Shown here: piece after piece, positions 1-25,287 of the stretch | How the letters are laid out: each line of letters starts with the position of its first letter | How positions within the stretch are numbered: position 1 is the stretch's first letter | Assembly: GCF_018499875.1 (NCBI RefSeq) | Contig: NZ_JAHBAY010000005.1 | Coordinates: 434,001 to 498,000 of the forward strand | DNA from: Kineosporia corallincola | GTDB taxonomy: Bacteria; Actinomycetota; Actinomycetes; Actinomycetales; Kineosporiaceae | DNA length: 64,000 nucleotides | Reading direction: 5' to 3' | Program-made: the position numbers and the translations under genes | The notes under the pieces: model-generated | The model's input: the letters and a program-made list of their open reading frames with translations, nothing else | Database searches by the model: none | Told to the model about the DNA's origin: nothing

Positions 1-3000
1 ACTGGCCGGCCTGCGACGGCTGGCGGGCAGGGCTGGCCGGGCGGGCGGGACTGGCCGCGCGCCCGGACGACGGGGAGGCCGGACGGCCCGCGACCGGGCT
101 CTGGGGGCGCGACGGGACCGGGGTGCCGGGGCGGCTCACCGGTGCGCTGCGCGAACCGTCGCCCGAGCCGGACGGACGGGCTCCCCCGAGATGACGGACC
201 TCCCGCAGCAGCCGGTCGTTGACCCCGCGTGGATGCCTCCGAGCCTCCGGGAGCGGCCGGTACTCGTGCGCGTGCCCGGGGCGCAGGTAGACGACCTCGG
301 TGAAGTGCTGCCAGATCTGGTTCACCAGGCCGGCGGCCAGGTCGCGGCGCAGCCGCAGGAGGTTGCCGGCGGGCAGTTCCCGCCCGGCATCACGGTGTTC
401 ACCGGCGATCCGCGCGGCCGCGATCACCGCCGGGAAGTCGATCGTCCTCAGCTGCGCCCGGGTGAGCGAGGTCTGGTGCGGATCGGCCAGCAGCACCGAG
501 GCGTAGTTCTCGGCGAGGTGGTGCACGACCGGAGGGACGTCGCTCAGGTCCAGGGGTTCGTAGCGCCCGGTCTCCTTCGCGTAGGCGGTGTCCAGCGCCC
601 GGTGCACCTGCTGCTCGTCCCGCAGGGTCGCGAGCAGCTCGTGGCCGTCGGGCTCGTTCAGCGAGTCGCGCCGGTCCTGGCTCCGCGAGCGCAGGAGCGG
701 CCTTTCCTGCCCCAGGGTGCTCAGCCGGCGCCGCAGGGTTCCGATCGGGTCCTGCCACTGCGTGCGGCTGCGGACCGTCACGGCCGGCTGGTTCGCCGGG
801 TCTGCCGGCGGCACGGCCATGTCGGCCGGGGAGGCGAACGGACGACGAGGACCCGGCGACGCGCTCCGGGCCTCCGTCGGCAGGGGCAGGTCCCGGTTCG
901 GGCGGGGTGATCCGTCGGCGTTCACACCGTGGTCGCTGGGCACGACCGCCTGGTCCACCGGGCGCGTCGTGGAGGTGACCAGGTCGTCACCGCCCAGCCA
1001 GCGGCGCACCGCCGGTGACGTGATGGCGCGGACCCACGGGCGCGGACCGGTCCGGAACCGCACCCGGACGGTGAACCGGACCAGCGGGACGGCGGGGTTG
1101 CCCGGGTCGTCCCGGCGTTCGGCCCGCACCCAGATGTGGACCCGGCTGCGGGAGAAGGCCCCGTCCTCGGAGCCCTGGTTGACGGTGACGACGTTCGTCA
1201 TCGGCCGCCCGGGGGCGATCTCGGCCACCAGCGCGGTGAGCGCCCGGGTGGTCACGGTGTCGTCGACCAGGTGCACCAGGTCACGCCGCCACCGGCCGCC
1301 CAGGCCGCCGGTGAGCGCACCGGCCTCTTCCAGTGCCGCCCAGACCCGGCTCACCACGAGATCGCGCACCCCGGCCGCGACCTCGAAACCCGCGACCGCC
1401 ACGGGATCCAGCGTGGTGGGGTCCTGCTCGGCCAGGTCCTGCTCGGCTGGGTTCTGCTCGGCGTTCTGGCCGGGGTCGGGTGTGCCGGGTCGCGGTTGCC
1501 GGTCGCCGTCGCCCGGGTCGGCAGCCGGCACGAGGCCGGTGTCCGCCACCACGTCGGGTTCCCCGGCCATGTCGGGCTCCGCGGCCACGGCCGGGTCCTG
1601 GGTCCCCGGTTCGGGGCCGGGCTCTGGCACGGCGGGTCCGGCGGTCCCGGGTCCCACGTTCGTCATGGCCTGGCCGGTGAGCGTTTCCAGGACCGCGTCC
1701 AGGGTTTCCTGGTGCACCTCCCGCGCCGGTCGCCGGTCGACCCCCAGCGCCTCGTGGTCGGCCAGGTCGACCGGCACGAAACCGGGATCGTCCGGCCGCC
1801 CGGCCGGCGGCTCGGGGTCGCCCCAGGCGTCGGGACCGGTCCCGGCGCCGTCCGCCCCGTCCGCGTCGTCCCCGGCGGGCCGGGTGCCGGACGTCTCTGC
1901 CTGCTGCGCCTGCTGTGCCGCAGTCGCGCCCGGGGAATCCGGGGTCCCGGCGACCTCGGCGCCCGGCACCACACCGGTCGTCCGCAAACCGCTGTCGGCC
2001 AATCGGTTCTCGGCACCGTCGGCCCGGGCTGCGGAGCCACCCGTGCCGGGTCCCTCTCCGGTCGCCTCCCCCTGCCAGGCCGCGCGCAGGTCGTCCAGGG
2101 TCATCCGGGTGGTGCCCGGCGAGACCGGGACCGACGCCGCGGCGATCGTCAGGGCCGTCAGGTTGCCCACGTCGCCCAGATCGCCGCGGGGACCGAGGCC
2201 CGCGACCACCCAGCCGAGATCGTCCACCGTCAGCTGCTGTCCGGGTTGCCGCCCGGGCCGGGTCAGGGTGACGGGGGCGTCGAGCAGCACCGTGTCGTGG
2301 AGCCGGCGCAGGACCCGCATCTGCTCGATGCTGAAGCCCGGCCCGTGGATCTGCGTGGCCAGGGTGGCCACGGTCAGCAGCTCCTCCCGGCGGTCGGCGC
2401 GGGCAGAGCCTCCGGCCATGAAGTTCCAGGCCCGCTGCCAACCGCTCAGCTGCGCCCGGCCGACCAGTTCCTGGATCGCGTCCGAGAACTCCTGGTCCGG
2501 GAAGTGCTGGGCGACGATGCGTTCCAGCTCCGCCAGACCGGCAGCCTCCGGTGCGGCGAACCGGTAGTCGTCACCGATGTTGAGGCTGGTCACCGCACGC
2601 AGCCGGGCCTCGACGAAACCGGGTGCTGGGCTGCCACGTTCGCCGGACGACCAGTGCGCCCACTCCCCCTCGGCCGGCATCACGGTATCGGGGCCGGTGA
2701 GGGCTGCCGATCCGGTCCGATTCGTCTGCTGGACAGAGGCATTCGCGGCGCCGGCCGTCCCGTCGGCGGTGGCCGTGACCGTACCCGTGGACGCCGCGTC
2801 GGAGGCTTCCGCAACGGATGACGGCATCGCCGGGCCGAGATCCCGTGCGGACACGGTCCCGTCCGGTTGCGGGGTGAACAACACCCAGCTCCCCCGGGCC
2901 GGCAACACCGGCCGGGACAGCCGGATCCGGCCGTCCGCGCTGACCTGCGGCGGGCTGACGACGCCGTTGAGACCGCCGGGCGCACCGGGTGCCGCCTGCC

Positions 3001-6000
3001 AGACGAATCCACGCGGGGCCATCACCGGACGGCCCAGGGCGGTGGCCAGCCGGGCGGCGTACGAGCTGGTCCCGCCGACGGCGGTGTCACAGACCACCAG
3101 GCGCAGCACCCGGCGGTCCTCGCCCTGGAGCCGGGTGACGGCCTGCGCCAGCGCGGGAACCGTCACCACGTTGCCGTTCTGGTCGCGCACGCCCTCAGCC
3201 GTGCCGCGCGAGGCCAGGGTGGCCGCGCCGGCGTCGGCCGGCAGACGCCGGGCGAACTCGATCCGCGCCGGGTCGGCCGCGGCGAACAGCACGTGCCCGC
3301 CCTCGGTCGGCACCGCGGACGCGACCACGGCGGCACCCAGCGCATCGCCGTCGAGGGCATCGGCCGTCATGCCCTCCGCCGTCGTCACGCCGTCCGCCGT
3401 CACACCGTCCGGGTCGTCGCCGATCACGAAGACGTCCGTGTCCTCCGGCAGATTCCCTCGTCCGGCCAGCGAGGTGGCCGGGTCGGGTTCCACCGGCGCG
3501 GGTGACCAGACCACCTGCTGGTCCTGCGCCGCCGGGGACCGCATCTGCTCCAGCGCACCGGTGAAGTCCGCGCCCACGTCACGGCCCTGCGTACCGATCC
3601 GCGGGGTGAACCAGTGGAACACCGGCGCCGTGTCGCGACCCGTCACCGCCTGTCCCGGAAGGCCATTCGCCGAGGACTGGCCGGACGGCACGACGCGCAC
3701 CCAGCCCAGTGGGCCGCTCTCCTGCGTCGATGCGGCAAGGGGGGTGTCCACCTGCGGGGGACGGACCACCATCGCCCCGGTGTCCGGGGTGAGCGCCGGC
3801 ACCGGTCCCGGGACGGCGGGATCCTGCGTCGCGGAGGGTGGCGCGGGAATCATCAGGAGATCACTCGTCGGGGCCAGCACGCCGACCTCGAGCAGGTCGC
3901 GCAGTCGCTGCGGGAACGACTGCGCCGCGGGAACTCCCGACGGCGCGGCGATGCCGTCGATCATCAGCATCAGGCCGCGGCCGCCCCAGGCCGGCTGCTC
4001 GCTCAGGTACTCGACCAGACCTTCCGGGCCGACCAGCCGGGACGACGTCCCGGAACCGATCTGCACCTGGTTCGTCGCCGGGTCGTACCGTCCGGTGACC
4101 GCGAGCCATCCCGGCACCCGGGGCAGCGCGTCGCCGAGCCGGACCGACTGCGGGGACGAGTCGAGCGAAAGGCCGGATCGGGTGAGGGTACTCGTCACAC
4201 CCGGGAATGCCGTGGGCGGCTCCGCCGCGACCTCGCGGCCGGCGTGGTACGTCTTCGTGACCTCCCCGTCGTCCCCAGGGGTTTCGACGACCTCGATCAG
4301 GCCCGCGGCCACGGCCTGCTCCTCGGTGAACAGGAAGTAGCCGCCGTTCTCGACGCCCAGTTCCGCCGGCTCAGCGGCGAGCGTCGAACGGCTTCCCAGA
4401 ATCGACTGCGGGATGCGCGAATTCACGAGCGTGTAGAAGGTCGCGGCGCGCACGAGGAAGGACGGGGTGTCGAGTTCGGTGGTCTCCTCGGTGACCCGCC
4501 CGGAGTTCGAGGTCTGTGCGCCGCCGGTCACGTTCGCCTTGCCCAGCGCGGGTTGCGCCGCCGCGGAACTCGACTCGCCGAGCCTGATGTTGTCCTCGTC
4601 CGCCCCCTCCCGCAGCGCGGTGCGGATGACCGGCGCGGAAATGCCCTGCCCGAAGGATGTCTCGGCCGACACGACGTTCTCGGCCTCCCCGCCCTTCTCG
4701 ACGGTCCGCTCGGTCCCGATCAGGAACGGGCGCACGCGAGGCCGGCCGTCCGGGTCCGAGGGGTCGGCCGGCTCGGTCGGGTTGAGCAGCACGGCATCGG
4801 CCAGCCGGAGCTTGAGATTCTGGTGGTGCAGCGTGTTGCCGAGCAGTCCGCGCACGGTCACCGCGGGCATGCTCAGGCCCTGGGCCTGGAGAAGGGGCGG
4901 GACGTTGGCCGACAGAATCTCTTCCGCCGAGGCCATGTGCAGCTGATGGTCGATCTGTAGCCCTTGCGGCACCCTCCGGTTTCCGGTGGCCGATCCGGTC
5001 AGGCCGGCTCGCAGGAACGCCGGGATCAGCCGGGTGCCGGCGAGCCAAGACTGTTCCGGCACCTGACCTTTCAGGTCCAGGAACTTCCGGTTCGGGTTCT
5101 CCGGGTCGGTCACCCGGTAGGGGTTGCGGGCAACGGTGGACGGCGTGGGGGTGGCGAGATCGACCGGCGTGTGCAGAGTCACGGTGTCCGTGGCCGAACC
5201 GTAGGAGGTCCAGCCGGAGGGCGAGTGGTGAGCCAGAGGACCGGCCACCGCCTCCACGCCCGCCCCGCCGTGGATGGTGACCTGGAGCTCCACCTCCCAG
5301 ACGATCTCGTGCGTGCTGCGCAGCGCCTTCTTCGCCTTCGGCTTGACCCGGCGGTTCTGCTTGTCCGAGGTGTTCGCCGACCGGGACAGGCCGCTCTCGG
5401 TCGTGCGGCCGGCGCTGCCGCCGATGCCCGGGCGGTTGCTCGTCAGCACCGTGCCGGAGGCGGTGACGCCGCCGGCCCAGGAGGACGACTGGCCGCGGCC
5501 GGAGCCCTCGTCGTGCCGGGACCCGTACTGCATGAAGTTGTCCAGAGACGCGGCCACCTCGCTGGTCGGCCCGAGGGCCTGGCCGATCCTGGCACCGACC
5601 TTGAACACGAGGGTGCGGCGCAGCGGGGTGTTCCGGATGTTCTCGGTCACGGTCAGGGCGATCCTGGCGCCCAGTGCACTGCCGATCCGGGCGCGTACCG
5701 CCCGGGCCCCCAGACCGTTCTCCAGCGAGACCATCGCACCGGTGGGGGCGTCCAGCCAGGCCGTGTCGGTGTACCCGGAGAACCCGCTACGGGTCAGGAG
5801 ATCCTTGGCCAGCCTCAGCGGTTTGCCTGCGTCACCGAAGCCGACCACCTCCGAAAGCCCGAGCACGTGGCCGTCATTCACGAAGGACGCCGGGAGCAGG
5901 TTCGGTTCGGGCGTCGGCGTTGCGGCGTCCGGATCAGTGTCCGGGTGGGCGTCCGGATTGACGTCCGGATTGACGTCCGGATTGACGTCCGGGGCAGCTT

Positions 6001-9000
6001 CTGGAGCGGTCTCCGGGTTTGCGGCGACGGGTTCGGCCGGGGCTGCGCCGGCTTGCCCGGCCTCAACGACCGCGGCGGTCGGGACCGCCGGGGCTGCCGG
6101 GGCTGCCGGGGTGATGGGCGGCAGGTGCAGGGCGTCGGCGCTGGTCGCGTCGATCAGGTACTGCACACCCCGCTCGATGATCACGAAACGTGAGCGCCGG
6201 GCCAGGCCGCCGCGGCCGCCACCGGTCTGGCCCCATGTGTAGTCGATGATCTCGAACATCAGGTCGCCCCGGTACAACCGGTGCGCCCCCAGGGCACGAC
6301 CGGTGCGGCGCACGGCACCGGAGATGTTGTCACCGGTCACGGAGTCCTGGCGGAAACCTCTGCGGTACTGCGCGTTCGGTGCCACCGTGACGCTGGACAG
6401 TGCTCCGGCGTCCACCGATGCGCGGAACACGCCACCCAGGCCGAACGCGGCCTCCCCGGCCAGTGCCTGCTTGCTCTGGTGGTCCAGGCGAACGGCCGAC
6501 TCGTTGACGTCGTCGGCGGTTCCGGCGGAGGTCTCCAGCAGGGCGTCACCACGGTGACGCAGGTGCACGCGAATCCGCCCGGCGGCGTGCAGATCCCGGA
6601 TCAGGCCGGGCGTCACCAGTTCGGAGACGGCCGCGCCGCTGTCGCTCAGCATCAGCTCCAGGTTGCTGTAGAGCGATTCCGGGCTGGCCACCGCCTCTGC
6701 CACCTGGAGCCTGCGGTTTCGGGTGCCGACGTCGCCCAGACTCTCCAGCACGGCCGCCTCGACCGCTCCCAGGCCCAGCATGCTGACCGGGATCACCTGG
6801 TTGCCGCGGCCACCGAAACGGATGGCCTGGGCCAGGAACTGGTCGACCTGCGCGTCGTCCGGGTGGGTGACGCGCCCGAGGCCGTCCGGGTTCTCGGCCG
6901 GGGACTTCGTCAGCATCTCCTCGGAGACCGCCACCCGCACCTCCCCGTCCAGCCGGGTGGCCGGGGGCTGCTGCCGCACCCCGTCGATCTCGACGCTGAC
7001 GTCGTAGCTGACGCCGAAGGTCAGCAGCTGGGTGGGGCTCTTGAACTTCCAGCGCCGGTTGGACTTCACCGCCTGGCCGGCCGTCTCGGTCTGCTGATCG
7101 GTGTACGACACACTGCCCCCGGCCACCGGGGTGATGGCCCGCAGCGGTCCCTTACCGGTGCCGAACAGCGACGGAACGTCGAGGCTGCCACGCACCACCG
7201 AACCCAGGGTGCGCTTCACGTCCAGCTTGGTCGAGTTCTTCCACGAGACATCCACGGTGGCATCGTGTTCGGTGGACTGCGGCATGCTCTCGATGAACCG
7301 GCCCAGCGTGGGATCCACCACGATGCGCACGCCCCGCCCGCCCAGTGCCAGGTCCAGCGACAACCGGGACGGCAGACCGTGCTGCATGCGGGTGAGCACC
7401 GCCGGGGCGGAGAACATCTGGTTCACCTGGCTCCGGAACGAGTTGCGTTCCGCCACCGTGCTGCGGCTCCACTCCGCCGCCAGCCGCTCCTGCACCTGCC
7501 GTTCGATCTCCGGCATGATCTTCTCGGCACCCGGCACCAGGTCGACGCCGCCGTGACCGATGGCCTGTCCCGTCACCAGACCGTCCGGCAGATAACGGGT
7601 CTCGCCGTTACGGATGGTCACGGAGGCGCTCGCGTTGTGCCGGCGGACGGCCCGCACAGGATCATCGCTGTGCGGCACCACCTGCGTCCCGGCCGCTGGA
7701 GCCTGTTCGGAGGGGTGCCGGACCGCCTCCTCGAACCGTGCCACCTCGTTCTCCGGAACGGCGAGATACACGGTGACGTTCTCGTGCACCGGGTCGATCG
7801 GTGTGGAGGCGTCGAGTGCGACCGTGACGCGCATGGTCGCACGCAGGAACACGACCGGGCCGGCGTACTCCGACACCGCCTTCGATCCCGCGTTGTTGCC
7901 CGTCGACACCGACACCGGCCGGGTGGTGCCCAGGCCGACCAGGTTCCCGGAGACCGTGGTGGAGGAGTAGGTGCCCAGACCGGTGCGGCCGGTGCCGTCG
8001 TACCCGGTCTGCCAGGTGCCCTGGAGCCCGAGGCTCAGGTCCGCGGTGGACGAGATGCCGTGCTTGGCCTCCATCTTGACGGACGACCCGGCGTCCTGCC
8101 GCAGCGTGCTCTTCGGCACCGAGAACACCCGCTGCACGTCGGACAGGCCGGCGGTGACCTCCAGCGAAACACCCCCGAAGACCGGCAGCACCCGCGACAT
8201 CAGCCGCCCGCCGGTCATGAAACCGGCATTCAGCAGCAGGTTCTCGTTGTTGAGGAAGGCATCCAGCTGTCGCAGGGTTCCGGCATCGGCCCCGGTCAGC
8301 CGCGATCGCACGGCCGCGGCCAGACGGCCGGCATTCAGCGACTCGACGATGTGGAACACCTCGTGCAGGGGCGAGCGGACGCTGCTCATCCCCTCCGGCA
8401 CCGAGATCACCGGGTGGATCTGGGTGGGCAACGGACGGGTCGCGGCGTCGGTCTCGGTGTCGGCGGCGGTCTCGGTGTCGGCGTCGGTGTCGGCAGGGGT
8501 CTCGGTGTCGGCGGCGGTCTCGGGCATCCGGACCACCTCGTCGTTGAACCGGGCCCAGACCCGGCCCGACCCCACGGTGTGCTCCAGAGGCGCGGCTGAC
8601 GTGGCGGCATCGTTCAGCACGAGTTTCAGCCGGGCCAGGGCCAGGAACTCGGTACTGCCGATGAGACCCTTGATGTTGCGCGAGATCTCGGTTCCGGAAC
8701 CGCTGACCCCTTCGAGCGACTCCTGCTCGTTCATCCGCACGGAGGCCGGGATCCCGGCGGTGCGCAGGGTCGCACCCACGCCGAGCGACAGCGCGTTGGT
8801 CGCCATCACCCCGCCGGAGCGCTGGGTGGTCAGCCCGGCGCTCCGGTCGCCCTGCGAGGTCTGGTAGCGCACGTCGTAGGCGATCTGCCGGTCCTCGATG
8901 CTCTCGCTCCCGGGCGCCTTCTCCAGGGGCACGCCGCCCAGCAGGTCCACAGCCAGACGGGCCTCGTAGGAACGGTTCCCGACCCGGATCCGGCCGGGGA

Positions 9001-15000: not shown

Positions 15001-18000
15001 TTGGGTTTTCGGTCGCGGGCTCGGTCACGGGCTCCGCCTCGGTAGCGGCTGCCGTCACGGCGCCGGTCGCGGCTGCCGTCCCGGTCGAGGTCGCGGCTCC
15101 GCCCGCTTCCACCGCAGCGGTGGCAGGTGCGTCCAGCGTCAGCGCGAGCGGGGTGACGGACAGGCCGATGGTGCGCAGGTGCAGCAGATCGGCCGGCAGG
15201 TAACGGGTTTCCTTCGGCGTCTGATGCAGACCGCTGCGCATCGGCACCACCAGATGCACCGGGTAGGTGGTGCCGGCCAGGGCCAGCGGACTACCCTCGA
15301 CCGGGGCGATCTCCCGCCCGTCGGCCAGTCGCAGACGCATCGTGACCCGGATGTTTCCCCGCGCCCGGGGCAGGTTGCCCGCGTGCCGCACCGATACCAC
15401 GTCGCGGAAGGTCCCTCCCGCCGTGGAGGTCACTGCGGCCTGGCGCTGTGCCCCCGCGCTGACGGCCAGCCGGCCGTCCACGTCCGCGCCCGGCGCACTG
15501 GCGAAACCGAACTCCGCCGTCAGGTTAAGGCCGATGGCGGAACTGATCGTGGCCGTGTTCTGGGTCCGTACCGAACGCAACCGGTACGACTCGATCACCG
15601 AGTTCACCAGGGCTGGCCCGTTGGCCTCCAAGGTGCCGACCAGCTCGGCCGACATCTCGACGAACCCGATGGCGGAACCACTCCCGTCGTTCAGCAGCGG
15701 CAGCGTCACCACGTTGCCGCCCATCATCAGCGGCAGGTTGGCCCGCAGGTCCCCCTCGGACAGGGCGCTCTTCAGGTCGTCCAGCACATCCTCACGCAGG
15801 TTCGTCAGATACGGCGCGAAGGAGGTGAGGAAGTCGTCGTACAGCTGCTGATGGTTCGGAACCGACTCGACGCCGAACAACGGCATCACGGCGAGGTCTT
15901 CGGGTGTGGGGATCTCGGCCGGGTCGGCGGATGCGTCGCCGTTCTCCGGGCGCACGGCCTGATTCTGCCCGATCCAGGCGGTGAGCGGCTCGTCCCCGAG
16001 ATCGTTGATCGGCTGCCAGTTCCGGTCCTCGGCCGGGACCGAGTCGTCCACCGGTCCCTCCAGCTCCAGCATGTGCCAGGCCATGGTGAAGCCGATGCGC
16101 TCGTGCGGCTGCCGGTTACGCATGATGGTGAACGCCTGCACGCTGATGCCGGTCGTGGTGCCGTAGGTGCTCTGGTTGTGGGTGAACTCGACCCGGGGCG
16201 TGAGGCCGATCTGGAGCAGCGGGAACCGGTGGAACACCGGCACGGTTCCGCTGTACTGCACCCGCCCGCTGCGGAAGTTGGTGGACGACATGGTGTTCCC
16301 GGCCTCGCCGATGCCGAACTGCCACCGCTGGCTCTGCACCGGGAGGTTCCCGCCGAGCCGGTCGATCCCGTCCGGGAGCTGCCGCGGCTCGCTCAGGGAC
16401 AGCCGCAGCACGATGGTCGGGCCGGACGGCAGCTTCAGGACCAGACCCCGTCCGAGCACACGGGCCCACTCGGCGGAGATCCGCCGGCCGGTGACCGTCT
16501 GCCCCACCCAGGCCCGCAGCGCGTCGTCCTGGCCCCGGCCGCGTTCGCCCGTGGTGATGATGCGTGCCTGGAGCCCCCTGACCACGGAGTCCGGCACCGG
16601 GGCGAAATGCAACAGCGGATGGGCGTTGTCTTGCGTCGTACCGAGCTGGTTCACCAGGTCGCTGAGGATCAGCACCGGATCGGCGGCGACCGCCGGCGGG
16701 TCGATGACCGCGGACGGGGTGACGGCCTGCGCCGTGGCCCCACTCGCTCCCGCGCCCGGGCTCTGTGCCGGGGCCTGCGCCGGAGTCTGTGCCGGCGCCC
16801 CTCCACGGGCCCGCAGGCGTCCTCCCGAGTGCAGGTTGAGCACCTGCCAGGCCATCGCCCGGCTGTTGCGCGGTGCCGCATCGCCCGCCTCGATCCGGCG
16901 CATCAGATCGCGCACCCGGGTCACGTCGAGCGGCGGCAGAACGTCTTCCGGCATCACCCGCCGCAACTGGAGATTGACGTCGTTCAGCACGTCCTCGGGT
17001 CGCAGCGGCGATCCGGACGACCCGGCCACCGGCTGGGGCTGCGCGGCACGAACGGAACCGCCCGGGCCGACGCCGGAATCGGAGTCGTCGTCCGAATTGA
17101 GATCCGCGTCGGAATCGTTGCGCCGGCCGGCGGCGAAGCTGAGACCACCGGTGAGGCCGTCGTCGCCCACCCCCACGTCCAGAGCGTCGTCGCTCCCGTC
17201 CACCCCGGCCGCCGGACCGTCTCCTCGCTGCGGGCGACGCAAGGTCAGGTCATTGGTCCGGTTCTCCAGAGCGGTCTGGGTGAGGTCCATCCGGAACAGG
17301 TGGGCACCGCTCTCCCGCCGGAGCTCGGACTCCAGGGAGGCGACGTGGTCACCGCCCATCCCCACGTACCGCGTGCCGTTCCGGATCGCCGCCCGGGTGG
17401 TCGCCAGCATCGAGAGGTCACGCCAGGCCTCGAACATCCTGCGGTCGTCCGGCTCGCGCTCCAGCGCGGTGCGCTCGTTCTGTCCCAGGTCGTCGTCCTT
17501 GGCCGCACGGGCGCGCATGGCCTGCACGAACGTCGTCCCGAAAGATTCCAGCCGGGGCAGGAACTCGCTGGTGAAGGCGTTCTCGCCGATGGCTTCGCGG
17601 TGCCGTTGCAGGCTCTCCCGCAGGCCGCCGTCCGGCGTCAGGCCGGCCATGAAACCGTTGAGCACCGGGGCGGTCTCGGTCGCGACCTGCCGCAGGATCG
17701 TCTTGGTGCGGCGCACCCCGCTCCGGCCCGGCAGCCGGTCCCGCGTGCTGGGCTGGGTCTCGCCCGCGTAGGCCCAGGCCACTCGGAGCATGCGCTGCCA
17801 GGCCACGTCAGCGTACGCGGTGTCCCGGCCCGGCGCCAGGCCGTTCGTCCGGATCGCCTGCAACACGTCGCTGACGGCCACACCCAGCTTGGGGTAGAGA
17901 GATTCGCCACCGTGACGCCGGATCTGGGCGTCGGACAGCTCTCCGAGGAAGGGCTGCCACAGGTGCTGACTCATCTGCCGGAAGGCCCGGCGGGTGGCCG

Positions 18001-21000
18001 GGTTCCCGCTCAGGTCGTCCTTGGGGAACAGCTCGTAGACGAAACTGTCCGACCCGACCGTCCGCAGGATCTGCGGGAGGGTGGCCCGGGTGTGGTCCTC
18101 GCCGATGATGTTGGTGCCGGCCGGCTCGAAGCTCACCCAGGTCCGCTGGGCCACGTCGGTCTGTCCCGGGGTGAGCGGGAGGTTGCCCAGGTAATCGGTG
18201 CGGCCCGCGGCATGGTCGCGGAACTCCTGCAACGACGAGTACAGGTGCAGCATGCCGTCGGCGGCCTTGTCCCGCTGCTCCGGCGTCGCCCCGCGCCCGT
18301 CCCAGGTGTCCCCGGCGATCCGGACACCGCCGCCCCGGCCCGGGCCCCCGGTGGTGGGGGCCCCGGCCCGCAGGCGCAGTCCTCCCCCCAGATGCAGGTT
18401 CACCACCTCGTGGGCCATGTCACCGATGTTGTGCACCGGCGTGCTGACCTGCGTCATCAGGTCCTTGACCCGGTCGGCGTCGAGTCCCGCGTCGACCGCC
18501 GAGCTGCCCTGCGCGACTTTGGGATACTCGGACCTCACCGCGTTCAGCACGTCGGGCAGGGGGAAACGCCGCTCGAACTCCTGACGAGCCGTCTCGTCCG
18601 AGGTCGCCGCGGACGACGCCGCCACCGCTTCGGGACCCGACCTGCCGGATTCCTCCACGCCCGAGCCGACCTCCGGTACGGACGCCCCCGTGAGCGTCCG
18701 TACCGGCACGACGTTGTCGGTCGTGGCATCGGCAAGGCGGTCGGCCGACACCGGTACAGAGACCGGCCGGGGACGACCCGTCACCGGGAACCTCATCCAG
18801 GCGACGCCCCGCCGCACACTGCCGGGGATGAGCGAACGGTCGACCCGGGCGATTACTTCGGTACCGAAGTCGGTCACCGCCCGCTGAACGAGAGGAAGGG
18901 GAACCGGCTTGCTCTCGTCGAGCACCAGGGATTCGCCTACGGCGACATCTCCGGGCCGTAGACCTTCCAGCTCGTCCAGATGCACGATCCGCGAGTTCTC
19001 GGTCACGGTGGCCGGCAGGTCCGCGAGCGAGGACGTGGTCGCCGACGTCCCGGACCTCTCCGCCCGAGGCCGGTCCGCGGGCTCCGAAGCACCCTGCCCA
19101 GGAGAGGCGGAAGAGCTGGAAGAAGCTCTGCCACCTCCTTCGGCTGCTGTGGAACCTGTTGCAGCATTATCGGTTCCGATGGAAACCGGACCGGCGTTCC
19201 CTCGGAGGGAGGTACCGGTGGCGGCCGGTAGTTCGGTGGTGGACGTGACCTGCTTCGGCCCCGCTGTACCGGGGAGCGAGGCACCCGGAGTGTTCCGCGT
19301 GACAGGGTTCACGCCGGTACCAGCCGGATTCGGGTTTCCCGTAGCCGTTTTCGCCTCGCCCGGGGCAGTGCTGATGGCAGTGCTAGTGACACCTGCGCCG
19401 GTGTTGGGCCGGACAGGAGTCGACGGGTTTGCGGTGCTGGACGAGTTGGCGCCTGCCGTGGCAGGGGTCGCGGTGCCAGATCCAGTGTTTCCGGCTCGGA
19501 CGGAAGTTTCGCTCCCCGGCGAGGTGTTCGCGTTCGGCCCGCTCGGTGTTCCCGTGACGGGTACCGAGGTGCGGGACGTCGTGGCCGCGATCCCGTCGCT
19601 CGCCGGGGTGGTCGTGGAGCCGTTCCGCTCCGGCCGCATGCCCCCGGCGACGGAGGCCGCCCGTCCGTCGGCGTCCGCGGCTCCGCCGGTGTTGCCGGTC
19701 GTGTTTCCGGCGACGTTCCCGCCCGGGCCGACGCCGGCGCCGCTCGGCCTCGTCACCAGCGGGGTGCTCGTCCCCGTGGTGTCAGTGGTGTCAGCGGACC
19801 TGGCACCGGTCCCGGTTGAAGAGAGCGTCTCGGCGGCCTGCTCCGGACGCGCGGTACTTCCGAAGTCGAGACCCTCCAGGTCGTCATAGGAGGTGAGGTC
19901 GATCAGGGGGGTGTCGTCCTGGTCCAGTCCGAGCAGGTCGGCGACGGCCGGCCCGTCCGTCGCGGAAGTGCCCGACCCGGCCGGTGACGTCACGGAGGCC
20001 GAGGACCCGCCGGAAGACGAGGCCGCGCCCGCAGAACCGGCGCCGATCTGGTGACCTGGGGTCGAGGCTCCCCCGGCTCCGGCACCCACGGTTGCCCCCG
20101 AAACACCCGAAACACCCGAGCCGTTCGGGGCGGTTGCCGTGCCCGCAGCGCCGGAGATGTCCCCGTCCCCGGAGACGTTCGCGGTGCCCGAGACACCCGC
20201 GCCCGAGACACTGGTGGCCGCGACCGCCCCCGTGGCGGCGGTCAGCCCCGTGACGGAACCGATTCCGTCGTTCCCGGCTATCTGCACCGTGCCGGCACCG
20301 AGATCCAGATCCGGATCACCGGTCCCGTCCGTGGGCGCCCGGAAGTCGTTGGCAGCCGCCGAACTCAGCAGGGGAACGTTCTGGGCCGGATCGACGAAGT
20401 TGCGAGCCGCGCGGCCGGTGAGCGCGCCGTCACCGTCGCCGATGCCCCGGTCGCCGGCGTTCCCCTTGATCAGCCCACCGATGCCGGTACCGAGACTGCC
20501 GGCCAGACTGGAGGCCGCACCGGAGCTGAACGAGTACCAGTTCCAGGCGAATTCCTCGCCCTGGAGCACCAGCAGAATGCCCTCGGTGAAGGCCTCGTGC
20601 GCACCCTCCTCGGCGAAGTCCACGACCGCCTTGACCGTGGCAGCCGACAGCGCGACGCGCAGCGGCCCCTCGATCGCCCGGTAGAACGAATTGGAGATGC
20701 GCTCGGCCGTCGCCCGCAGTCCGGCGGCGCTGAAAGAGCTGATGTTGCTGGACACCGCAGTCGCGACGGCGTTCTTCAGTACGGTGTAGTCGGACTTCTT
20801 GAGGCTGTTGCCCAGAAGCTTCTTCAGCCCGTCGTTGATGGCGTTCGTCACCGCGTGCCCGAGCGCCGAGAACGCCGGGGCCAGCGCGCCGCCCAGCGCG
20901 CCGACCTCGGCGGCCTGCCGGGTCAGGTTGCCGTCCCAGTGCTTTCGGTGTCCCTCGATCCGCTGGATGGTCTGGACGATGACGTCCATGGCCACCTGGA

Positions 21001-21517
21001 GACCTATCCCGACCAGCTGGGCCTGGGCGATGGCCAGAAACAGCCGTCCCCACCAGGTCTTCAGCAGGTAGGCGACGATGCGCATCCGCATCAGCGCCCA
21101 GACCAGGCTGGCCCCGCCGGTCAGCACCGCGACCTTGATCGCCCAGGCGATCTCGATGATCAACTCGATCAGCGTAAGGATCGAGATCAGCTTGATGTAC
21201 TCGACCATGAGCGAGACTTTCTCCAGAAAGTCCGCCAGGTCCTCGAACTGCCCTGCGGCGGTCGGAAGATAGCTCGGTCCGCTCACATACGGCTCGACGG
21301 CCTCGATGAACTTGGTGGAGGCCTTGCCGGAGAAGTTGGACCGGATGAAGTTGATGACCTCGATCAGTTCCGGCCCGAGCACCTGCCGGACGTCGGTCGC
21401 GGCATCACGCCAGGCCTGCGCCAGCACGCGCAGGTCGTCCTCGTTCGCACTGGGCCACTGCTCCCCGGTGAGAACACGGAACAGTCCCCGGACTTCTTCC
21501 GGTACCGACAAGGCCAT
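1..21517 (-). CDS. Giant T7SS-linked polymorphic toxin-like protein (lonely-Cys type), C-terminus cut by window
   Basis: One uninterrupted frame of at least 7,172 codons starts at ATG 21517 and leaves the left edge. The start is fixed by an in-frame TGA two codons upstream. Residues 1-240 are a helical WXG100-like head with strongly hydrophobic helices at about 105-190. Residues 390-855 are an Ala/Gly/Ser/Thr/Pro linker. Residues 1090-1420 form a folded helical domain with two GxxH motifs (H1142, H1391). Paired NLHxGG modules lie near 990-1055 and 1505-1575. Long beta-rich blocks follow, separated by acidic or Pro-rich linkers (about 2135-2240, 3440-3645, 3865-3910, 4325-4360, 5135-5210, 6490-6740), with another hydrophobic stretch near 3025-3070. 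Cys6143, in a VVCDTAVGG context followed by a caspase/C80-like segment, is the only cysteine I found by manual translation. The visible end is Pro/Ser/Arg-rich. It is the last gene of the eccD operon. Family knowledge: similar giant actinobacterial proteins sit at T7SS loci. Inference: secreted or surface-displayed toxin or conflict protein. Confidence 0.85.
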   Translation of the reverse strand, partial: MALSVPEEVRGLFRVLTGEQWPSANEDDLRVLAQAWRDAATDVRQVLGPELIEVINFIRSNFSGKASTKFIEAVEPYVSGPSYLPTAAGQFEDLADFLEKVSLMVEYIKLISILTLIELIIEIAWAIKVAVLTGGASLVWALMRMRIVAYLLKTWWGRLFLAIAQAQLVGIGLQVAMDVIVQTIQRIEGHRKHWDGNLTRQAAEVGALGGALAPAFSALGHAVTNAINDGLKKLLGNSLKKSDYTVLKNAVATAVSSNISSFSAAGLRATAERISNSFYRAIEGPLRVALSAATVKAVVDFAEEGAHEAFTEGILLVLQGEEFAWNWYSFSSGAASSLAGSLGTGIGGLIKGNAGDRGIGDGDGALTGRAARNFVDPAQNVPLLSSAAANDFRAPTDGTGDPDLDLGAGTVQIAGNDGIGSVTGLTAATGAVAATSVSGAGVSGTANVSGDGDISGAAGTATAPNGSGVSGVSGATVGAGAGGASTPGHQIGAGSAGAASSSGGSSASVTSPAGSGTSATDGPAVADLLGLDQDDTPLIDLTSYDDLEGLDFGSTARPEQAAETLSSTGTGARSADTTDTTGTSTPLVTRPSGAGVGPGGNVAGNTTGNTGGAADADGRAASVAGGMRPERNGSTTTPASDGIAATTSRTSVPVTGTPSGPNANTSPGSETSVRAGNTGSGTATPATAGANSSSTANPSTPVRPNTGAGVTSTAISTAPGEAKTATGNPNPAGTGVNPVTRNTPGASLPGTAGPKQVTSTTELPAATGTSLRGNAGPVSIGTDNAATGSTAAEGGGRASSSSSASPGQGASEPADRPRAERSGTSATTSSLADLPATVTENSRIVHLDELEGLRPGDVAVGESLVLDESKPVPLPLVQRAVTDFGTEVIARVDRSLIPGSVRRGVAWMRFPVTGRPRPVSVPVSADRLADATTDNVVPVRTLTGASVPEVGSGVEESGRSGPEAVAASSAATSDETARQEFERRFPLPDVLNAVRSEYPKVAQGSSAVDAGLDADRVKDLMTQVSTPVHNIGDMAHEVVNLHLGGGLRLRAGAPTTGGPGRGGGVRIAGDTWDGRGATPEQRDKAADGMLHLYSSLQEFRDHAAGRTDYLGNLPLTPGQTDVAQRTWVSFEPAGTNIIGEDHTRATLPQILRTVGSDSFVYELFPKDDLSGNPATRRAFRQMSQHLWQPFLGELSDAQIRRHGGESLYPKLGVAVSDVLQAIRTNGLAPGRDTAYADVAWQRMLRVAWAYAGETQPSTRDRLPGRSGVRRTKTILRQVATETAPVLNGFMAGLTPDGGLRESLQRHREAIGENAFTSEFLPRLESFGTTFVQAMRARAAKDDDLGQNERTALEREPDDRRMFEAWRDLSMLATTRAAIRNGTRYVGMGGDHVASLESELRRESGAHLFRMDLTQTALENRTNDLTLRRPQRGDGPAAGVDGSDDALDVGVGDDGLTGGLSFAAGRRNDSDADLNSDDDSDSGVGPGGSVRAAQPQPVAGSSGSPLRPEDVLNDVNLQLRRVMPEDVLPPLDVTRVRDLMRRIEAGDAAPRNSRAMAWQVLNLHSGGRLRARGGAPAQTPAQAPAQSPGAGASGATAQAVTPSAVIDPPAVAADPVLILSDLVNQLGTTQDNAHPLLHFAPVPDSVVRGLQARIITTGERGRGQDDALRAWVGQTVTGRRISAEWARVLGRGLVLKLPSGPTIVLRLSLSEPRQLPDGIDRLGGNLPVQSQRWQFGIGEAGNTMSSTNFRSGRVQYSGTVPVFHRFPLLQIGLTPRVEFTHNQSTYGTTTGISVQAFTIMRNRQPHERIGFTMAWHMLELEGPVDDSVPAEDRNWQPINDLGDEPLTAWIGQNQAVRPENGDASADPAEIPTPEDLAVMPLFGVESVPNHQQLYDDFLTSFAPYLTNLREDVLDDLKSALSEGDLRANLPLMMGGNVVTLPLLNDGSGSAIGFVEMSAELVGTLEANGPALVNSVIESYRLRSVRTQNTATISSAIGLNLTAEFGFASAPGADVDGRLAVSAGAQRQAAVTSTAGGTFRDVVSVRHAGNLPRARGNIRVTMRLRLADGREIAPVEGSPLALAGTTYPVHLVVPMRSGLHQTPKETRYLPADLLHLRTIGLSVTPLALTLDAPATAAVEAGGAATSTGTAAATGAVTAAATEAEPVTEPATENPTGPATDNASDEATGAATENATGPATEAEAVAGSGTGAGGVPESDPATGTPGVPETGAAATAVTTDVPQTPPLTGFVALEKVLRDEGFLPDPSRAPVITTRGPARRLAGPDAAVTMQLLNLRKLQQIVGQAAQVAGLGAALEGGDTAWFERIHHGQVRRMAVRVRVERRYPDANDPETGVEHAYHAPRTQTLNFMGSTLAGEEQQTFSPFNWSVGVAGGPTRHGLEVLPQGSVRGGTSTTTLAGIGTGHEYYALSPTSQGSEIFRVPITLSIDLIDSHGPARSIDPVDGTVTLAVPTARTGAEPSTEPRRAPLTVREVTENDRRMLAAARSGDGTRLGGMRLPETAIIERLEGSQAVQAALFQLLGAPADTPVLPQTGQSWSEYLNQRVYQPFLNSWAGVLVGGAGQALVTAAVGEPMSNGASSAAEFGSLATSPEALRAGVLRIFNDEYVVEGLRGPGGVGTERTVRLRIRGYVTDFRANPKVEVMDGERWAQATTSHAHTTSTMLGGQIGLGLAGRAGDGNRTTGQYTFGRADTQSTTVGNNSSSFRVTSQDEFEAYRGKGKVVFVIEAEYGHRQEAAGLLGAGQSRRSLAVEVPDGMEMIFMDHDMHNHPALLKAVRDSGATVPPATPQNLRLPSRFISSGGQIGFGKVTEAITAPGSAPAGRALRDLVERVAPGLTTVGSATYSPTALTRINEQTTSFGLKEAVNAGPDGAVTFNVPYRSARGPARVRIRISARPKNLGELEQVRGRRAGKGSGLDNVFSHITGNGASLEVPGATRMAQTSTRTQNLGVTSDALLPSQTISPTLNESVRSDVGHAQSSTRELRTWERTMNSAEFWVRYEYVMEATVEPDWLAIEALLIQGTAVLVAQKLFLVIPWLWAGMIGMAATAAGTMSTADAVALEEGRLKKLSDDEKNGRVRVDVDVALRFAESETRPEGSDVPTQAGPVPVDPVLLKESPLLPRPVATPGETRITMDPDPELTSRLEGRRWLPKRPVEIYQFGGMPELARALNQVSPDWMRRITPSSSDFGEGQLIRLNQFLRNGEQVKAERAGTAAFLNRSGTDGTSIVMTLHEAWAVEERKDIAIDGIEVSNDSVTNTSSSSRGRSLALGPSFAIDTHQRSGFSLPVTGQTLTRGEISMLGSQRREVLRYGQPFSTEAKPGLPGFVVQATAVMEVTGPKGKVWVVAPIQMGTTERPVTAWPQIADLGDRRLSKVETERYDGLMRDALTRFPQERWDELAQAPGTALDGALIRVAHALLDGDPDAAQRVAEEAVERGRPATDAVVPPATDAVVSPVTDAVVPPVTDAMVPPVTDVSVPPATDAPVPPATDAPSPLVMDESAPPATTSRTVLPPTGPAEASGTENLPATDGGSQPGADAADPGVPAETTNRQEAPPTSDAPTPDAPTAGDGDGATRPARRRGIGNGGLPTIPEETEPAEGAPASADPVRAVAPVRPETPAERMLPKARPVLPKAGPVLPRTTRGIKNVSTVNDPDHGGPAGWPRTGRAGRVVRVKNATAPDGPGPRSWKDRLAGTFRRALDGAPGGSHRVLTRRSGRRTGKAELPHRADPFVSAVETPADLVAMARHTAVEVEIPAVLHEEARSRRSWAALRERSPHNLRVFSPPAPAHPGLADVLSTVTASTAGFRYVVDEGGVVRGALRMTRPHPTVAGHGRRGAVEFVPNPAVRRAAAPVIGPAPEATGRPGVTDPAAVTDPAAVTDPAAVTDSAAVTDPAGLVDPADPAAAVEWTHWSTSPDAQVVTENHEMRVLDPRRQNLPIIPETSEPGGPADAVTTAAAMVFAPATEPRGPVDLPVPPPGTEAIGRARVDALVVLFRSPAPDGTTWPAVLDRVEARILAAVTAAGNRVTGAVIRQAARDLDGLAITGNDALTAFSAAVLDAHRAAADQAVRTVLDGWDGVARSPGQQIAERRPVLPVYTLEGDLGSGKILHAQNFTRPDQVAAAVARRIGQPLTPSQLEAVETVLGREISVPGATTLMRGGVPLPGRIRVGNRSYEARLAVDLLGGVPLEKAPGSESIEDRQIAYDVRYQTSQGDRSAGLTTQRSGGVMATNALSLGVGATLRTAGIPASVRMNEQESLEGVSGSGTEISRNIKGLIGSTEFLALARLKLVLNDAATSAAPLEHTVGSGRVWARFNDEVVRMPETAADTETPADTDADTETAADTETDAATRPLPTQIHPVISVPEGMSSVRSPLHEVFHIVESLNAGRLAAAVRSRLTGADAGTLRQLDAFLNNENLLLNAGFMTGGRLMSRVLPVFGGVSLEVTAGLSDVQRVFSVPKSTLRQDAGSSVKMEAKHGISSTADLSLGLQGTWQTGYDGTGRTGLGTYSSTTVSGNLVGLGTTRPVSVSTGNNAGSKAVSEYAGPVVFLRATMRVTVALDASTPIDPVHENVTVYLAVPENEVARFEEAVRHPSEQAPAAGTQVVPHSDDPVRAVRRHNASASVTIRNGETRYLPDGLVTGQAIGHGGVDLVPGAEKIMPEIERQVQERLAAEWSRSTVAERNSFRSQVNQMFSAPAVLTRMQHGLPSRLSLDLALGGRGVRIVVDPTLGRFIESMPQSTEHDATVDVSWKNSTKLDVKRTLGSVVRGSLDVPSLFGTGKGPLRAITPVAGGSVSYTDQQTETAGQAVKSNRRWKFKSPTQLLTFGVSYDVSVEIDGVRQQPPATRLDGEVRVAVSEEMLTKSPAENPDGLGRVTHPDDAQVDQFLAQAIRFGGRGNQVIPVSMLGLGAVEAAVLESLGDVGTRNRRLQVAEAVASPESLYSNLELMLSDSGAAVSELVTPGLIRDLHAAGRIRVHLRHRGDALLETSAGTADDVNESAVRLDHQSKQALAGEAAFGLGGVFRASVDAGALSSVTVAPNAQYRRGFRQDSVTGDNISGAVRRTGRALGAHRLYRGDLMFEIIDYTWGQTGGGRGGLARRSRFVIIERGVQYLIDATSADALHLPPITPAAPAAPAVPTAAVVEAGQAGAAPAEPVAANPETAPEAAPDVNPDVNPDVNPDAHPDTDPDAATPTPEPNLLPASFVNDGHVLGLSEVVGFGDAGKPLRLAKDLLTRSGFSGYTDTAWLDAPTGAMVSLENGLGARAVRARIGSALGARIALTVTENIRNTPLRRTLVFKVGARIGQALGPTSEVAASLDNFMQYGSRHDEGSGRGQSSSWAGGVTASGTVLTSNRPGIGGSAGRTTESGLSRSANTSDKQNRRVKPKAKKALRSTHEIVWEVELQVTIHGGAGVEAVAGPLAHHSPSGWTSYGSATDTVTLHTPVDLATPTPSTVARNPYRVTDPENPNRKFLDLKGQVPEQSWLAGTRLIPAFLRAGLTGSATGNRRVPQGLQIDHQLHMASAEEILSANVPPLLQAQGLSMPAVTVRGLLGNTLHHQNLKLRLADAVLLNPTEPADPSDPDGRPRVRPFLIGTERTVEKGGEAENVVSAETSFGQGISAPVIRTALREGADEDNIRLGESSSAAAQPALGKANVTGGAQTSNSGRVTEETTELDTPSFLVRAATFYTLVNSRIPQSILGSRSTLAAEPAELGVENGGYFLFTEEQAVAAGLIEVVETPGDDGEVTKTYHAGREVAAEPPTAFPGVTSTLTRSGLSLDSSPQSVRLGDALPRVPGWLAVTGRYDPATNQVQIGSGTSSRLVGPEGLVEYLSEQPAWGGRGLMLMIDGIAAPSGVPAAQSFPQRLRDLLEVGVLAPTSDLLMIPAPPSATQDPAVPGPVPALTPDTGAMVVRPPQVDTPLAASTQESGPLGWVRVVPSGQSSANGLPGQAVTGRDTAPVFHWFTPRIGTQGRDVGADFTGALEQMRSPAAQDQQVVWSPAPVEPDPATSLAGRGNLPEDTDVFVIGDDPDGVTADGVTTAEGMTADALDGDALGAAVVASAVPTEGGHVLFAAADPARIEFARRLPADAGAATLASRGTAEGVRDQNGNVVTVPALAQAVTRLQGEDRRVLRLVVCDTAVGGTSSYAARLATALGRPVMAPRGFVWQAAPGAPGGLNGVVSPPQVSADGRIRLSRPVLPARGSWVLFTPQPDGTVSARDLGPAMPSSVAEASDAASTGTVTATADGTAGAANASVQQTNRTGSAALTGPDTVMPAEGEWAHWSSGERGSPAPGFVEARLRAVTSLNIGDDYRFAAPEAAGLAELERIVAQHFPDQEFSDAIQELVGRAQLSGWQRAWNFMAGGSARADRREELLTVATLATQIHGPGFSIEQMRVLRRLHDTVLLDAPVTLTRPGRQPGQQLTVDDLGWVVAGLGPRGDLGDVGNLTALTIAAASVPVSPGTTRMTLDDLRAAWQGEATGEGPGTGGSAARADGAENRLADSGLRTTGVVPGAEVAGTPDSPGATAAQQAQQAETSGTRPAGDDADGADGAGTGPDAWGDPEPPAGRPDDPGFVPVDLADHEALGVDRRPAREVHQETLDAVLETLTGQAMTNVGPGTAGPAVPEPGPEPGTQDPAVAAEPDMAGEPDVVADTGLVPAADPGDGDRQPRPGTPDPGQNAEQNPAEQDLAEQDPTTLDPVAVAGFEVAAGVRDLVVSRVWAALEEAGALTGGLGGRWRRDLVHLVDDTVTTRALTALVAEIAPGRPMTNVVTVNQGSEDGAFSRSRVHIWVRAERRDDPGNPAVPLVRFTVRVRFRTGPRPWVRAITSPAVRRWLGGDDLVTSTTRPVDQAVVPSDHGVNADGSPRPNRDLPLPTEARSASPGPRRPFASPADMAVPPADPANQPAVTVRSRTQWQDPIGTLRRRLSTLGQERPLLRSRSQDRRDSLNEPDGHELLATLRDEQQVHRALDTAYAKETGRYEPLDLSDVPPVVHHLAENYASVLLADPHQTSLTRAQLRTIDFPAVIAAARIAGEHRDAGRELPAGNLLRLRRDLAAGLVNQIWQHFTEVVYLRPGHAHEYRPLPEARRHPRGVNDRLLREVRHLGGARPSGSGDGSRSAPVSRPGTPVPSRPQSPVAGRPASPSSGRAASPARPASPARQPSQAGQ
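5938..6000. repeat. Short tandem repeat (PDVN) in a linker of the giant gene
   Basis: A 12-bp unit occurs three times in a row, plus one diverged copy, encoding PDVN-PDVN-PDVN-PDAH on the minus strand. It lies within an Ala/Pro/Glu linker at about residues 5135-5210 of the giant protein. Confidence 0.8.
9808..9890. repeat. 18-bp tandem repeat inside the giant gene (about 4.6 copies)
   Basis: Units begin at 9808, 9826, 9844, 9862 and 9880, exactly 18 bp apart. They encode a hexapeptide repeat TDPAAV/TDSAAV on the minus strand, within a linker of the giant protein. The unit length is a multiple of three, so copy-number change would keep the frame. Confidence 0.9.
11010..11169. repeat. 24-bp tandem repeat inside the giant gene (about 6.7 copies)
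   Basis: Units begin at 11010, 11034, 11058, 11082, 11106, 11130 and 11154, exactly 24 bp apart. They encode an octapeptide of the type VPPATDAV on the minus strand. This is a Pro/Thr/Asp linker between beta-rich blocks of the giant protein. The frame is kept at any copy number. Confidence 0.9.
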
Positions 21518-21520: not shown

Positions 21521-21841
21521 TCAGGTCGCCCGTCCCCCGGCCACGCCGGTAGCGGTGGTGTTCGTTCCGTCGAGAATGCTTGCCACGTCCTTGGTCTGGC
21601 CGCTGTGCCCCGACACCAGCTGGCCCACGTCGTCCATGAAACGCAGCGACGCTTCGGCCGCCGGCACGTAGTTCGCGGTCAGGGTCTGCCCGAACTCGTC
21701 GGTGTTCTCGATCACGACCGCCTCGTGGGCGGTGCGCAGCCGGGCGGTGATGCCGGTGGCCACCCGCTGGAGGTACTTGAGCCGTTGTGCACCTCGGGCC
21801 ACTGCCTCCGGGTCGCCGGAGAAGACGTCGTCGTCAGGCAC
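21521..21841 (-). CDS. Small helical T7SS-associated protein (ESX substrate-like)
   Basis: A 106-residue protein starting at GTG 21841, 8 bp inside the end of the YbaB-like gene. A purine-rich GAGGG lies just upstream of the start. It is predicted to be mostly helical, has no signal peptide and no membrane segment, and has an Ala/Gly/Thr-rich end. Its length and position resemble the small EspC/WXG100-type partners encoded beside large T7SS effectors, but there is no W-x-G motif. Its TGA is in the same frame as the giant gene, with one codon between TGA and the giant's ATG. Inference: escort, chaperone or co-secreted partner of the giant protein. Real gene: confident. Function: weak. Confidence 0.75.
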   Translation of the reverse strand: MPDDDVFSGDPEAVARGAQRLKYLQRVATGITARLRTAHEAVVIENTDEFGQTLTANYVPAAEASLRFMDDVGQLVSGHSGQTKDVASILDGTNTTATGVAGGRAT

Positions 21842-22262
21842 GATCGCCCTCGTTCCGCCGGCGGCCCAGGTTCATCTCAGGGAAAAGCGGTTCGTCCCCG
21901 GCACGGAGCGCCTCGCTGAGCATCTGGTCGAGGTCGACGCCACCGCCCATCACACCGCCGAGGCTCGACGGGACGAACTCCATGAAGGCGGCCATGCTCT
22001 TGCGGGTCGCCTCTTCGTGTGCGGCCCGGGCGGTTTCGACGATCTTGGCACACAGGTCGGGCGCCGCGAGCTTCTGCCAGCGGGTGCCGGACAGTTTCAG
22101 CCCGGTCAGCTGTCCCTGGCCGTCGATGGTGACGGTGATCATCCGGTCGCGCGAGGTGGTGGTGCTGGTGACGGCGGCCACCTGGGCGCCGGCCCGGCCG
22201 ATCAGATCGCGCTGCTCGCGCAGCTCGGCTGCCGCCTGCTCCAGCTCTTCCGGTGATGACAT
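21834..22262 (-). CDS. YbaB/EbfC-family-like protein
   Basis: A 142-residue protein starting at ATG 22262, with GAGGAG seven bases upstream. Residues 1-45 are a helical segment rich in Glu and Arg. Residues 40-75 are beta strands with the pattern ITVTIDGQGQLTGLKL, followed by long helices: the nucleoid-associated YbaB/EbfC fold. Stand-alone YbaB proteins are about 100-110 residues; this one has about 40 extra Gly/Asp/Arg-rich residues at its end. YbaB-like proteins recur in actinobacterial type VII loci, where their job is not established. It overlaps the 106-residue gene by 8 bp, so it is translated with it. Alternative: an escort protein for the neighbouring effector rather than a DNA binder. 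Confidence 0.8.
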   Translation of the reverse strand: MSSPEELEQAAAELREQRDLIGRAGAQVAAVTSTTTSRDRMITVTIDGQGQLTGLKLSGTRWQKLAAPDLCAKIVETARAAHEEATRKSMAAFMEFVPSSLGGVMGGGVDLDQMLSEALRAGDEPLFPEMNLGRRRNEGDRA

Positions 22263-24857: not shown

Positions 24858-24906
24858 CGGTTCTCCTTCGGAAGTGCTCGGTGGGATGAGGTTGACGGAG
24901 CTGAGG

Positions 24907-25287
24907 TCAGCTGGTGGTGCCGGCCACATCCGGGTAGTTCTGCGAGAACTTCGACGCCTCGTAGGTGGCCAGGTTGTCGGTGTCCTGGAAGATGTCCGAG
25001 GCGTTCTTCAGCGCCGTCAGGAACGCCCGCACCTCGGTCTCGGTCAGGGTGTACTGCTGCTGGGCCGAGGCACCGAAAACTCCCGCCTGGGTGGCGAACT
25101 GCTTGGCTATCGTCCACGACTGCGAGCCCGGGCGGATGGCCGTGGCCAGATTCGCGTCGAGCTTCAGATCGACCGAGGGACCGAGCAGCTGGGGCGTGGT
25201 GTTGAGCACTTCGTCCACGTCACTGAGATAGGCCATCAGCGCGTCGTACTCGGCCTTACTGAACTGGAAGTTCCTGGTATCAGGCAT
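24907..25287 (-). CDS. Small ESX-locus protein, helical, 126 residues
   Basis: Start at ATG 25287, with AGGGAG six bases upstream; the longer frame to 25497 has no ribosome site and overlaps the WXG100 gene. The protein begins MPDTRNF, is helical, has no cysteine, no signal peptide and no membrane segment. It contains two long helices (about residues 10-35 and 75-105) around a Gln/Ala-rich middle. Its size and place between WXG100 genes and the 848-residue protein suggest an EspC-like ESX partner or substrate. It has no W-x-G and no clear YxxxD/E secretion signal, so assignment as substrate is an inference. Confidence 0.75.
   Translation of the reverse strand: MPDTRNFQFSKAEYDALMAYLSDVDEVLNTTPQLLGPSVDLKLDANLATAIRPGSQSWTIAKQFATQAGVFGASAQQQYTLTETEVRAFLTALKNASDIFQDTDNLATYEASKFSQNYPDVAGTTS

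Follow-up and report, generated by a model that had tools for sequence, protein, structure and literature searches.

A giant gene at the end of an ESX operon

The window analysed here, a 64,000-nucleotide stretch of the Kineosporia corallincola genome (contig C5:434001-498000), begins with the 5′ part of a giant gene that closes an ESX (type VII secretion system, T7SS) operon (Table 1). The minus-strand frame opening at the ATG at 21517 is free of stops for the 7,172 codons up to the window edge and continues on the contig for about 12.35 kb beyond it, giving a full-length protein of 11,287 residues. A preliminary description had proposed a single frame uninterrupted over 21.5 kb, which this leftward extension bears out, and had called the product one of the largest bacterial polypeptides; it is a giant, but others of its kind are much longer, up to 19,630 residues in another genome (G174).

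G+C content by codon position follows one pattern along all 11,287 codons (0.82-0.94 at third and 0.50-0.59 at second positions), which argues for genuine coding rather than a merely GC-rich open frame. That the frame is a decaying gene or an artefact of assembly, never translated as a single protein, could be suspected from the size and from the persistence of long spurious frames in GC-rich genomes, such as one of 3,267 residues on the opposite strand of the window. However, the steady codon-position pattern and the occurrence, in independent assemblies, of frames as long or longer that share its head make this extremely unlikely; a same-genus assembly (G005), for example, has an 11,259-residue frame with the same head and similar flanking genes. 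That assembly also has a 17,664-residue frame cut by a contig end.

The minus-strand gene order is EccD, EccB, three small proteins (99, 92 and 126 residues), an 872-residue protein, a YbaB-like protein, a 106-residue protein and the giant, with EccC and a mycosin on the opposite strand. EccB, EccC, EccD and mycosin, as expected of a locus exporting an ESX cargo, are all present, the mycosin profile scoring just under its cut-off. Overlaps of 7-23 bases between predicted genes (21834-21841, 24907-24929 and 27607-27613, by predicted starts) suggest translational coupling. The 872-residue protein is a possible co-secreted partner, and a motif like its C-terminal one was seen in two other genomes (G406 and G003). 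The operon of eccD, eccB and WXG100 genes that had been described as ending in the giant is therefore there, with EccB and EccD matched by profile and the small WXG-like proteins recognized by eye.

Table 1. Coordinates of the giant gene, its features and the ESX genes (window positions; aa, amino acids)
Feature	Position	Strand	Basis or remark
Giant gene, 5′ part, codons 1-7172 of 11,287	1-21517	minus	stop about 12.35 kb left of window, at C5:421654
Head shared with other giant frames, aa 1-353	20459-21517	minus	sequence comparison
WXG100-like domain PF25547, aa 5-149	21071-21505	minus	61.7 bits, cut-off 27, E 1e-16
Two hydrophobic segments, aa 101-135 and 159-177	20987-21217	minus	Kyte-Doolittle
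Module B, aa 1067-1437, GEDH...GMGGDH	17207-18319	minus	TraB/ChaN-like by eye only
Module C, aa 1619-3379	11381-16663	minus	sequence comparison
Module D, aa 3973-6037	3407-9601	minus	among 29 giants, matches same genus only
Dead CPD/caspase-like copy, aa 5779-5902, without both catalytic residues	3812-4183	minus	profile-profile E 1.2e-7 to intact relatives
CPD/caspase-like domain with lonely Cys, aa 6063-6220	2858-3331	minus	HMM iE 1.9e-18; models, fold matches
Cys6143 codon, only Cys, nucleophile position	3089-3091	minus	alignment with relatives
106-aa protein, directly upstream of giant gene	21521-21841	minus	39.8% identity in G005 C3
YbaB-like protein, 142 aa, putative secretion chaperone (cf. 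EspH/EspL)	21834-22262	minus	PF02575 E 1.4e-7
872-aa Gly/Ser-rich Cys-free protein, C-terminal WLSEDEKIWG...GVIGR motif	22311-24929	minus	
126-aa small protein, in-frame Met start	24907-25287	minus	longer frame 24907-25497: no Pfam match
92-aa WXG100-like protein, IWEG motif	25377-25655	minus	motif by eye; longer frame 25377-26090: no family match
99-aa helical WXG-like protein	25724-26023	minus	by eye
EccB	26087-27613	minus	family profile
EccD	27607-29013	minus	family profile
EccC (EccCa plus EccCb as a single protein), start codon uncertain	28943-33139	plus	
Mycosin-type S8 protease	33136-34332	plus	PF00082; TIGR03921 273.4 bits, just under cut-off 278.75

The giant carries the WXG100-type helical head of an ESX/T7SS cargo, and the membrane-prone character ascribed to that head is seen in its two hydrophobic segments. 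When slices of the protein were compared with Pfam and NCBIfam (Pfam only for the C-terminal part), the head alone passed a cut-off. No YxxxD/E secretion motif was seen by eye in residues 1-150; partner proteins may carry it. The head was matched at 98 or more places in at least 56 genomes, including at least 7 of the 13 family genomes and at least 50 of the 394 genomes of the class sample (our genome counts in both); these are lower bounds, since the class-wide search was restricted to five candidates per genome. Twenty-seven of 28 giants have a hydrophobic segment within the first 320 residues by the Kyte-Doolittle scale, with the contig-end-cut frame G005_C9_3 set aside. The longest head-bearing frames have 19,630, 17,460 and 16,924 residues. 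The first (G174 contig C17, L075-L077) has two cysteines and lies on a contig without an eccB or eccD match; the other two lie, with a third giant frame of 5,040 residues, inside 300 kb of one contig (G002 contig C1, L078-L083 and L122), where two of the three have eccB 8-11 kb 5′.

To place the heads relative to ESX genes, we surveyed 81 of the 98 places, the 17 excluded all being frames below 3,000 residues. For frames of at least 5,000 residues, eccB/eccD lies within 40 kb of 21 of 28 heads and, in 17 of the 28, 4-12 kb 5′ on the same strand; four more heads are 49-89 kb away and three have no match on their contig. Proximity within 40 kb was found for 13 of 24 frames of 3,000-4,999 residues (8 without ecc on the contig), 5 of 16 of 1,000-2,999 (10 without) and 5 of 13 below 1,000 (7 without), the two larger classes being complete and the lower two partial (16 of 20 and 13 of 26). 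The recurrence of eccB/eccD 4-12 kb upstream in 17 of 28 loci makes the giant the likely main cargo of its operon, as had been proposed.

We then compared 12 upstream regions, drawn from these 17 loci without our own and thus chosen for having eccB upstream. EccB, EccC, EccD and a YbaB-like match occur in all 12, and partial matches to the 872-residue protein in 8, to the 106-residue protein in 1 (with no match in the other 11) and to mycosin in 1. In 11 regions 0.3-0.6 kb separate the end of the YbaB-like match from the giant head; in G256 the gap is 3.8 kb. In the ESX-1 system of Mycobacterium marinum, the YbaB-like EspH is reported to bind EspE and to be needed for EspE/EspF secretion, and the same authors propose YbaB-like proteins as dedicated ESX chaperones (PMC6107294, in the portions bearing on this point). 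The locus resembles ESX-1 EspB/EspE/EspF with EspH/EspL in having a YbaB-like protein beside the cargo gene of an ESX operon, but differs in that a chaperone role here would follow from gene order only. The giant is presumably more than 20 times larger than those cargoes. On gene order and domains, the giant would be brought to the adjacent EccB/C/D machine by its WXG100-like head with hydrophobic helices, together with a dedicated YbaB-like chaperone, and the eccD-eccB-partner-YbaB-giant row points to a likely chaperone and to the set of 17 loci with eccB/eccD 4-12 kb upstream.

The lonely cysteine and its domain

A count over the full 11,287 residues confirmed that the protein holds one cysteine, Cys6143, in the context RRVLRLVVCDTAVGG. 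It lies in the second of two tandem copies of a domain resembling caspases and the cysteine protease domain (CPD) of MARTX and TcdA/TcdB toxins, which we take to be peptidase family C80 of clan CD. A hidden Markov model (HMM) built from intact relatives only recovers the second copy, and alignment places Cys6143 at the nucleophile position of such an autoprocessing domain (clan CD, MARTX/TcdB-type). We reject random survival of this residue, the chance of hitting one homologous position being about 1 in 11,287. Predicted models and fold matches agree with the clan CD fold of a C80-type CPD; Foldseek gave nothing at E ≤ 0.001 for either model, and we did not rely on its legumain, caspase and kinase rows alone. 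A Pfam search among seven domain members returned no C80, C14 or CHAT row at E ≤ 5, with HMMER filters dropping most weak matches, and comparison with Pfam or PDB profiles gave no sequence match to the MARTX/TcdA/TcdB family.

Both histidine and cysteine are present in the intact relatives of the domain. In the giant the position of that histidine is an arginine, so that the His-Cys dyad is incomplete; the only histidine of residues 6063-6220 lies near the domain start, away from the catalytic position. Together with the loss of both residues from the first copy, the missing partner suggests that the domain is apparently inactive and that self-cleavage has most likely been lost. One could instead suppose that the domain is still an active autoprotease using another base, and that the giant cuts itself at or near it after export: the sole cysteine kept in 11,287 residues sits exactly at the nucleophile position, and neutral decay should have removed it, as happened in the first copies. 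Given the arginine and the misplaced histidine, we consider this distinctly unlikely.

The fold of an intact relative, the His-Cys order and the site inside a giant multidomain protein are all shared with the MARTX and TcdA/TcdB domains, whereas the present giant lacks the histidine, lies in an ESX locus and matches none of them by sequence. In intact relatives the CPD-like domain should cut the chain and free downstream effector domains. Spirillospora albida offers a candidate case, with a protease-like unit ahead of what appears by eye to be an ART-like tail, an arrangement resembling the autoprocessing polymorphic toxins described in part of Zhang et al. 2012 (PMC3482391).

The giant had also been called a lonely-Cys protein. 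It has the single cysteine, but the NF012197 lonely_Cys model (cut-off 200 bits) found no match at E ≤ 0.01 in our genome, and an intact relative of the cysteine domain gives it only a weak score. NF012197 proteins are alike in their giant frames, single cysteine per domain and apparent tandem caspase-like units, the second with the cysteine; genome G249 has five full-length copies with one cysteine each, in which unit 1 is a weak HMM match and unit 2 was recognized by its motif. They differ in having MHG-type stretches where the giant's histidine position is altered, and their similarity to its domain lies mainly in the first unit. The puzzling annotation thereby gains a concrete reading, in which the cysteine occupies the known nucleophile position of a known fold and activity is predicted to be lost. 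A tblastn search of plasmids with the cysteine region gave no match, no relatives were found in viral contigs, and a scan of genome contigs returned four loci only.

Cysteine depletion across the giants

The rarity of cysteine extends to the other giants. We counted 29 of them: 27 of the 28 head-bearing frames of at least 5,000 residues, G005_C9_3, whose N terminus is truncated at the end of its contig, and G000_C11, which lacks a head match, with the G241:C2 frame excluded because its base composition looks masked. After removal of residues upstream of heads and, in G256, of those after a run of N marking an assembly gap, they contain 64 cysteines in 274,541 residues (0.23 per 1,000), and 12 have none; untrimmed, the count is 95 in 282,695. 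By comparison, the other genes of the window, picked by codon-position GC, have 71 in 13,725 (5.17 per 1,000). Non-ribosomal peptide synthetases (NRPS) have 122 in 36,777 (3.3 per 1,000, range 0.75-7.7), from seven HHxxxDG frames of 2,959-6,666 residues in six genomes (eight hand-picked regions, several cut by the 20-kb fetch); two coding-like frames lacking HHxxxDG, with 21 in 3,031 (our genome) and 12 in 5,014 (G005), were left out and would bring the total to 155 in 44,822. About 58 cysteines would be expected in the giant at the window-gene rate and about 37 at the NRPS rate, against the one observed.

The depletion is marked yet varies between giants, 15 cysteines remaining in one from G404. 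Nineteen of the 64 occupy peptidase-nucleophile contexts: 5 lie in HMM-supported CPD-like domains and 14 in papain-, OTU- or calpain-like contexts picked by a simple expression; the other 45 matched neither test. We disregarded a further flag raised at the beginning of G000_C11 (the 15th), together with the caspase-type flags of the expression. A 9,009-residue giant (G404:C1:4779103-4806730, L099-L100) shows, by eye, repeated contexts of the papain-like (GNNCLWHAL) and calpain-like (GDCYLMA) kinds, in contrast to the cysteine-free giants.

Such a purge would keep a very long chain free of disulfides during export and in the oxidizing exterior. For the type 5 pathway, a passage of PMC8151025 describes low cysteine content as usual, with few cysteines, close together, whose disulfides should not hinder passage. 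Our literature searches met no report of cysteine depletion in ESX giants among their best-ranked matches. Depletion across ESX-linked giants is a measurable signature and may tell the export route. A different use of the single thiol, as a redox or covalent handle that links one exported giant chain to another or to a partner, would fit one free thiol giving one defined cross-link in a chain of about 1.2 MDa, as well as its neighbours, of which the 106- and 872-residue proteins are cysteine-free and the YbaB-like protein has one. Homology to a protease nucleophile already explains the position, however, and several same-genus giants have no cysteine at all, which makes such a handle very unlikely.

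Modules and the nature of the probable cargo

Behind the head, the chain appears to be a shuffled string of modules. Module C is common to three giants of another family (f37: two in G174, one in G241) and to a same-genus giant in G005, whereas residues 6038-9353 have no match in the other 28 giants. The repeated beta blocks reported earlier were confirmed in part at most: the repeats that self-comparison located are three C-terminal copies (residues about 9379-11069), outside the window. TraB/ChaN-like motifs had been reported too, and here we found no Pfam or PDB-profile match to TraB/ChaN (TIKI) for residues 1060-1440, leaving a motif impression. Profiles of modules B, C and D and of the repeats gave nothing of weight against PDB sequences, and none at all for module C; a PLC-beta row at E 1.9 was dismissed.

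The family searches along the protein matched no toxin family, and in the C-terminal 4,114 residues Pfam matched no family at all. This result, the unmatched residues 6038-9353 and the suggestion, in the part of Zhang et al. 2012 on such repeats, that dead caspase-like copies may be structural or peptide-binding (PMC3482391) would suit a giant adhesin or surface fibre with structural modules and relic domains. Because some sister giants have peptidase-like nucleophile motifs, one relative ends in the ART-like tail and repeats make up only 12% of the protein, we regard this as unlikely. We favour, as reasonably probable, a megadalton ESX cargo of the polymorphic-toxin type, purged of cysteine, in which CPD self-cleavage has most likely been lost. 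The cargo would then act without being cut, as a long effector at the surface or delivered by contact, or be cut by another protease, for example the mycosin of the locus. A more far-reaching idea, possible if doubtful, is that unfolded megadalton chains are threaded through the ESX pore with a dedicated YbaB-like chaperone, hence the purge; type VII secretion would then extend beyond small, folded helical bundles, and actinomycetes would possess a MARTX counterpart of their own.

Giant proteins of this kind are known. In the parts that cover them, Zhang et al. 2012 report actinobacterial proteins of more than 10,000 residues with caspase-like and other peptidase domains, the caspase-like ones in repeats of which some lack catalytic residues, and name T7SS among delivery routes for caspase-domain toxins (PMC3482391). 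Those parts mention neither cysteine depletion nor a YbaB-like partner, and the MCF1-SHE, LF-like and OTU domains of their giants were not detected in ours. The earlier statement that the function of such proteins is not described was too strong, a function having been predicted there in 2012 (PMC3482391), although we found no experiment. Within the literature searched (best matches), the new elements are the reading of the lonely cysteine as a CPD-type nucleophile beside a dead tandem copy, the extent of the purge against controls and the gene row with its YbaB-like partner.

A polymorphic toxin would be expected to end in a variable toxin domain and to have an immunity gene next to it; among five frames downstream of the giant gene, family matches were limited to a B_lectin domain below cut-off and an AbiEii-type nucleotidyltransferase of a type IV toxin-antitoxin system (L006:3524-4504, PF08843, E 2.2e-22). 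Elsewhere in our genome (G000), EccB was matched on contigs C26, C1 and C14 in addition to C5, the C14 match being short. At the C14 locus lies a separate frame with the head, 7,351 residues long, and contig C11 ends in a 6,165-residue frame that has module D in common with the giant.
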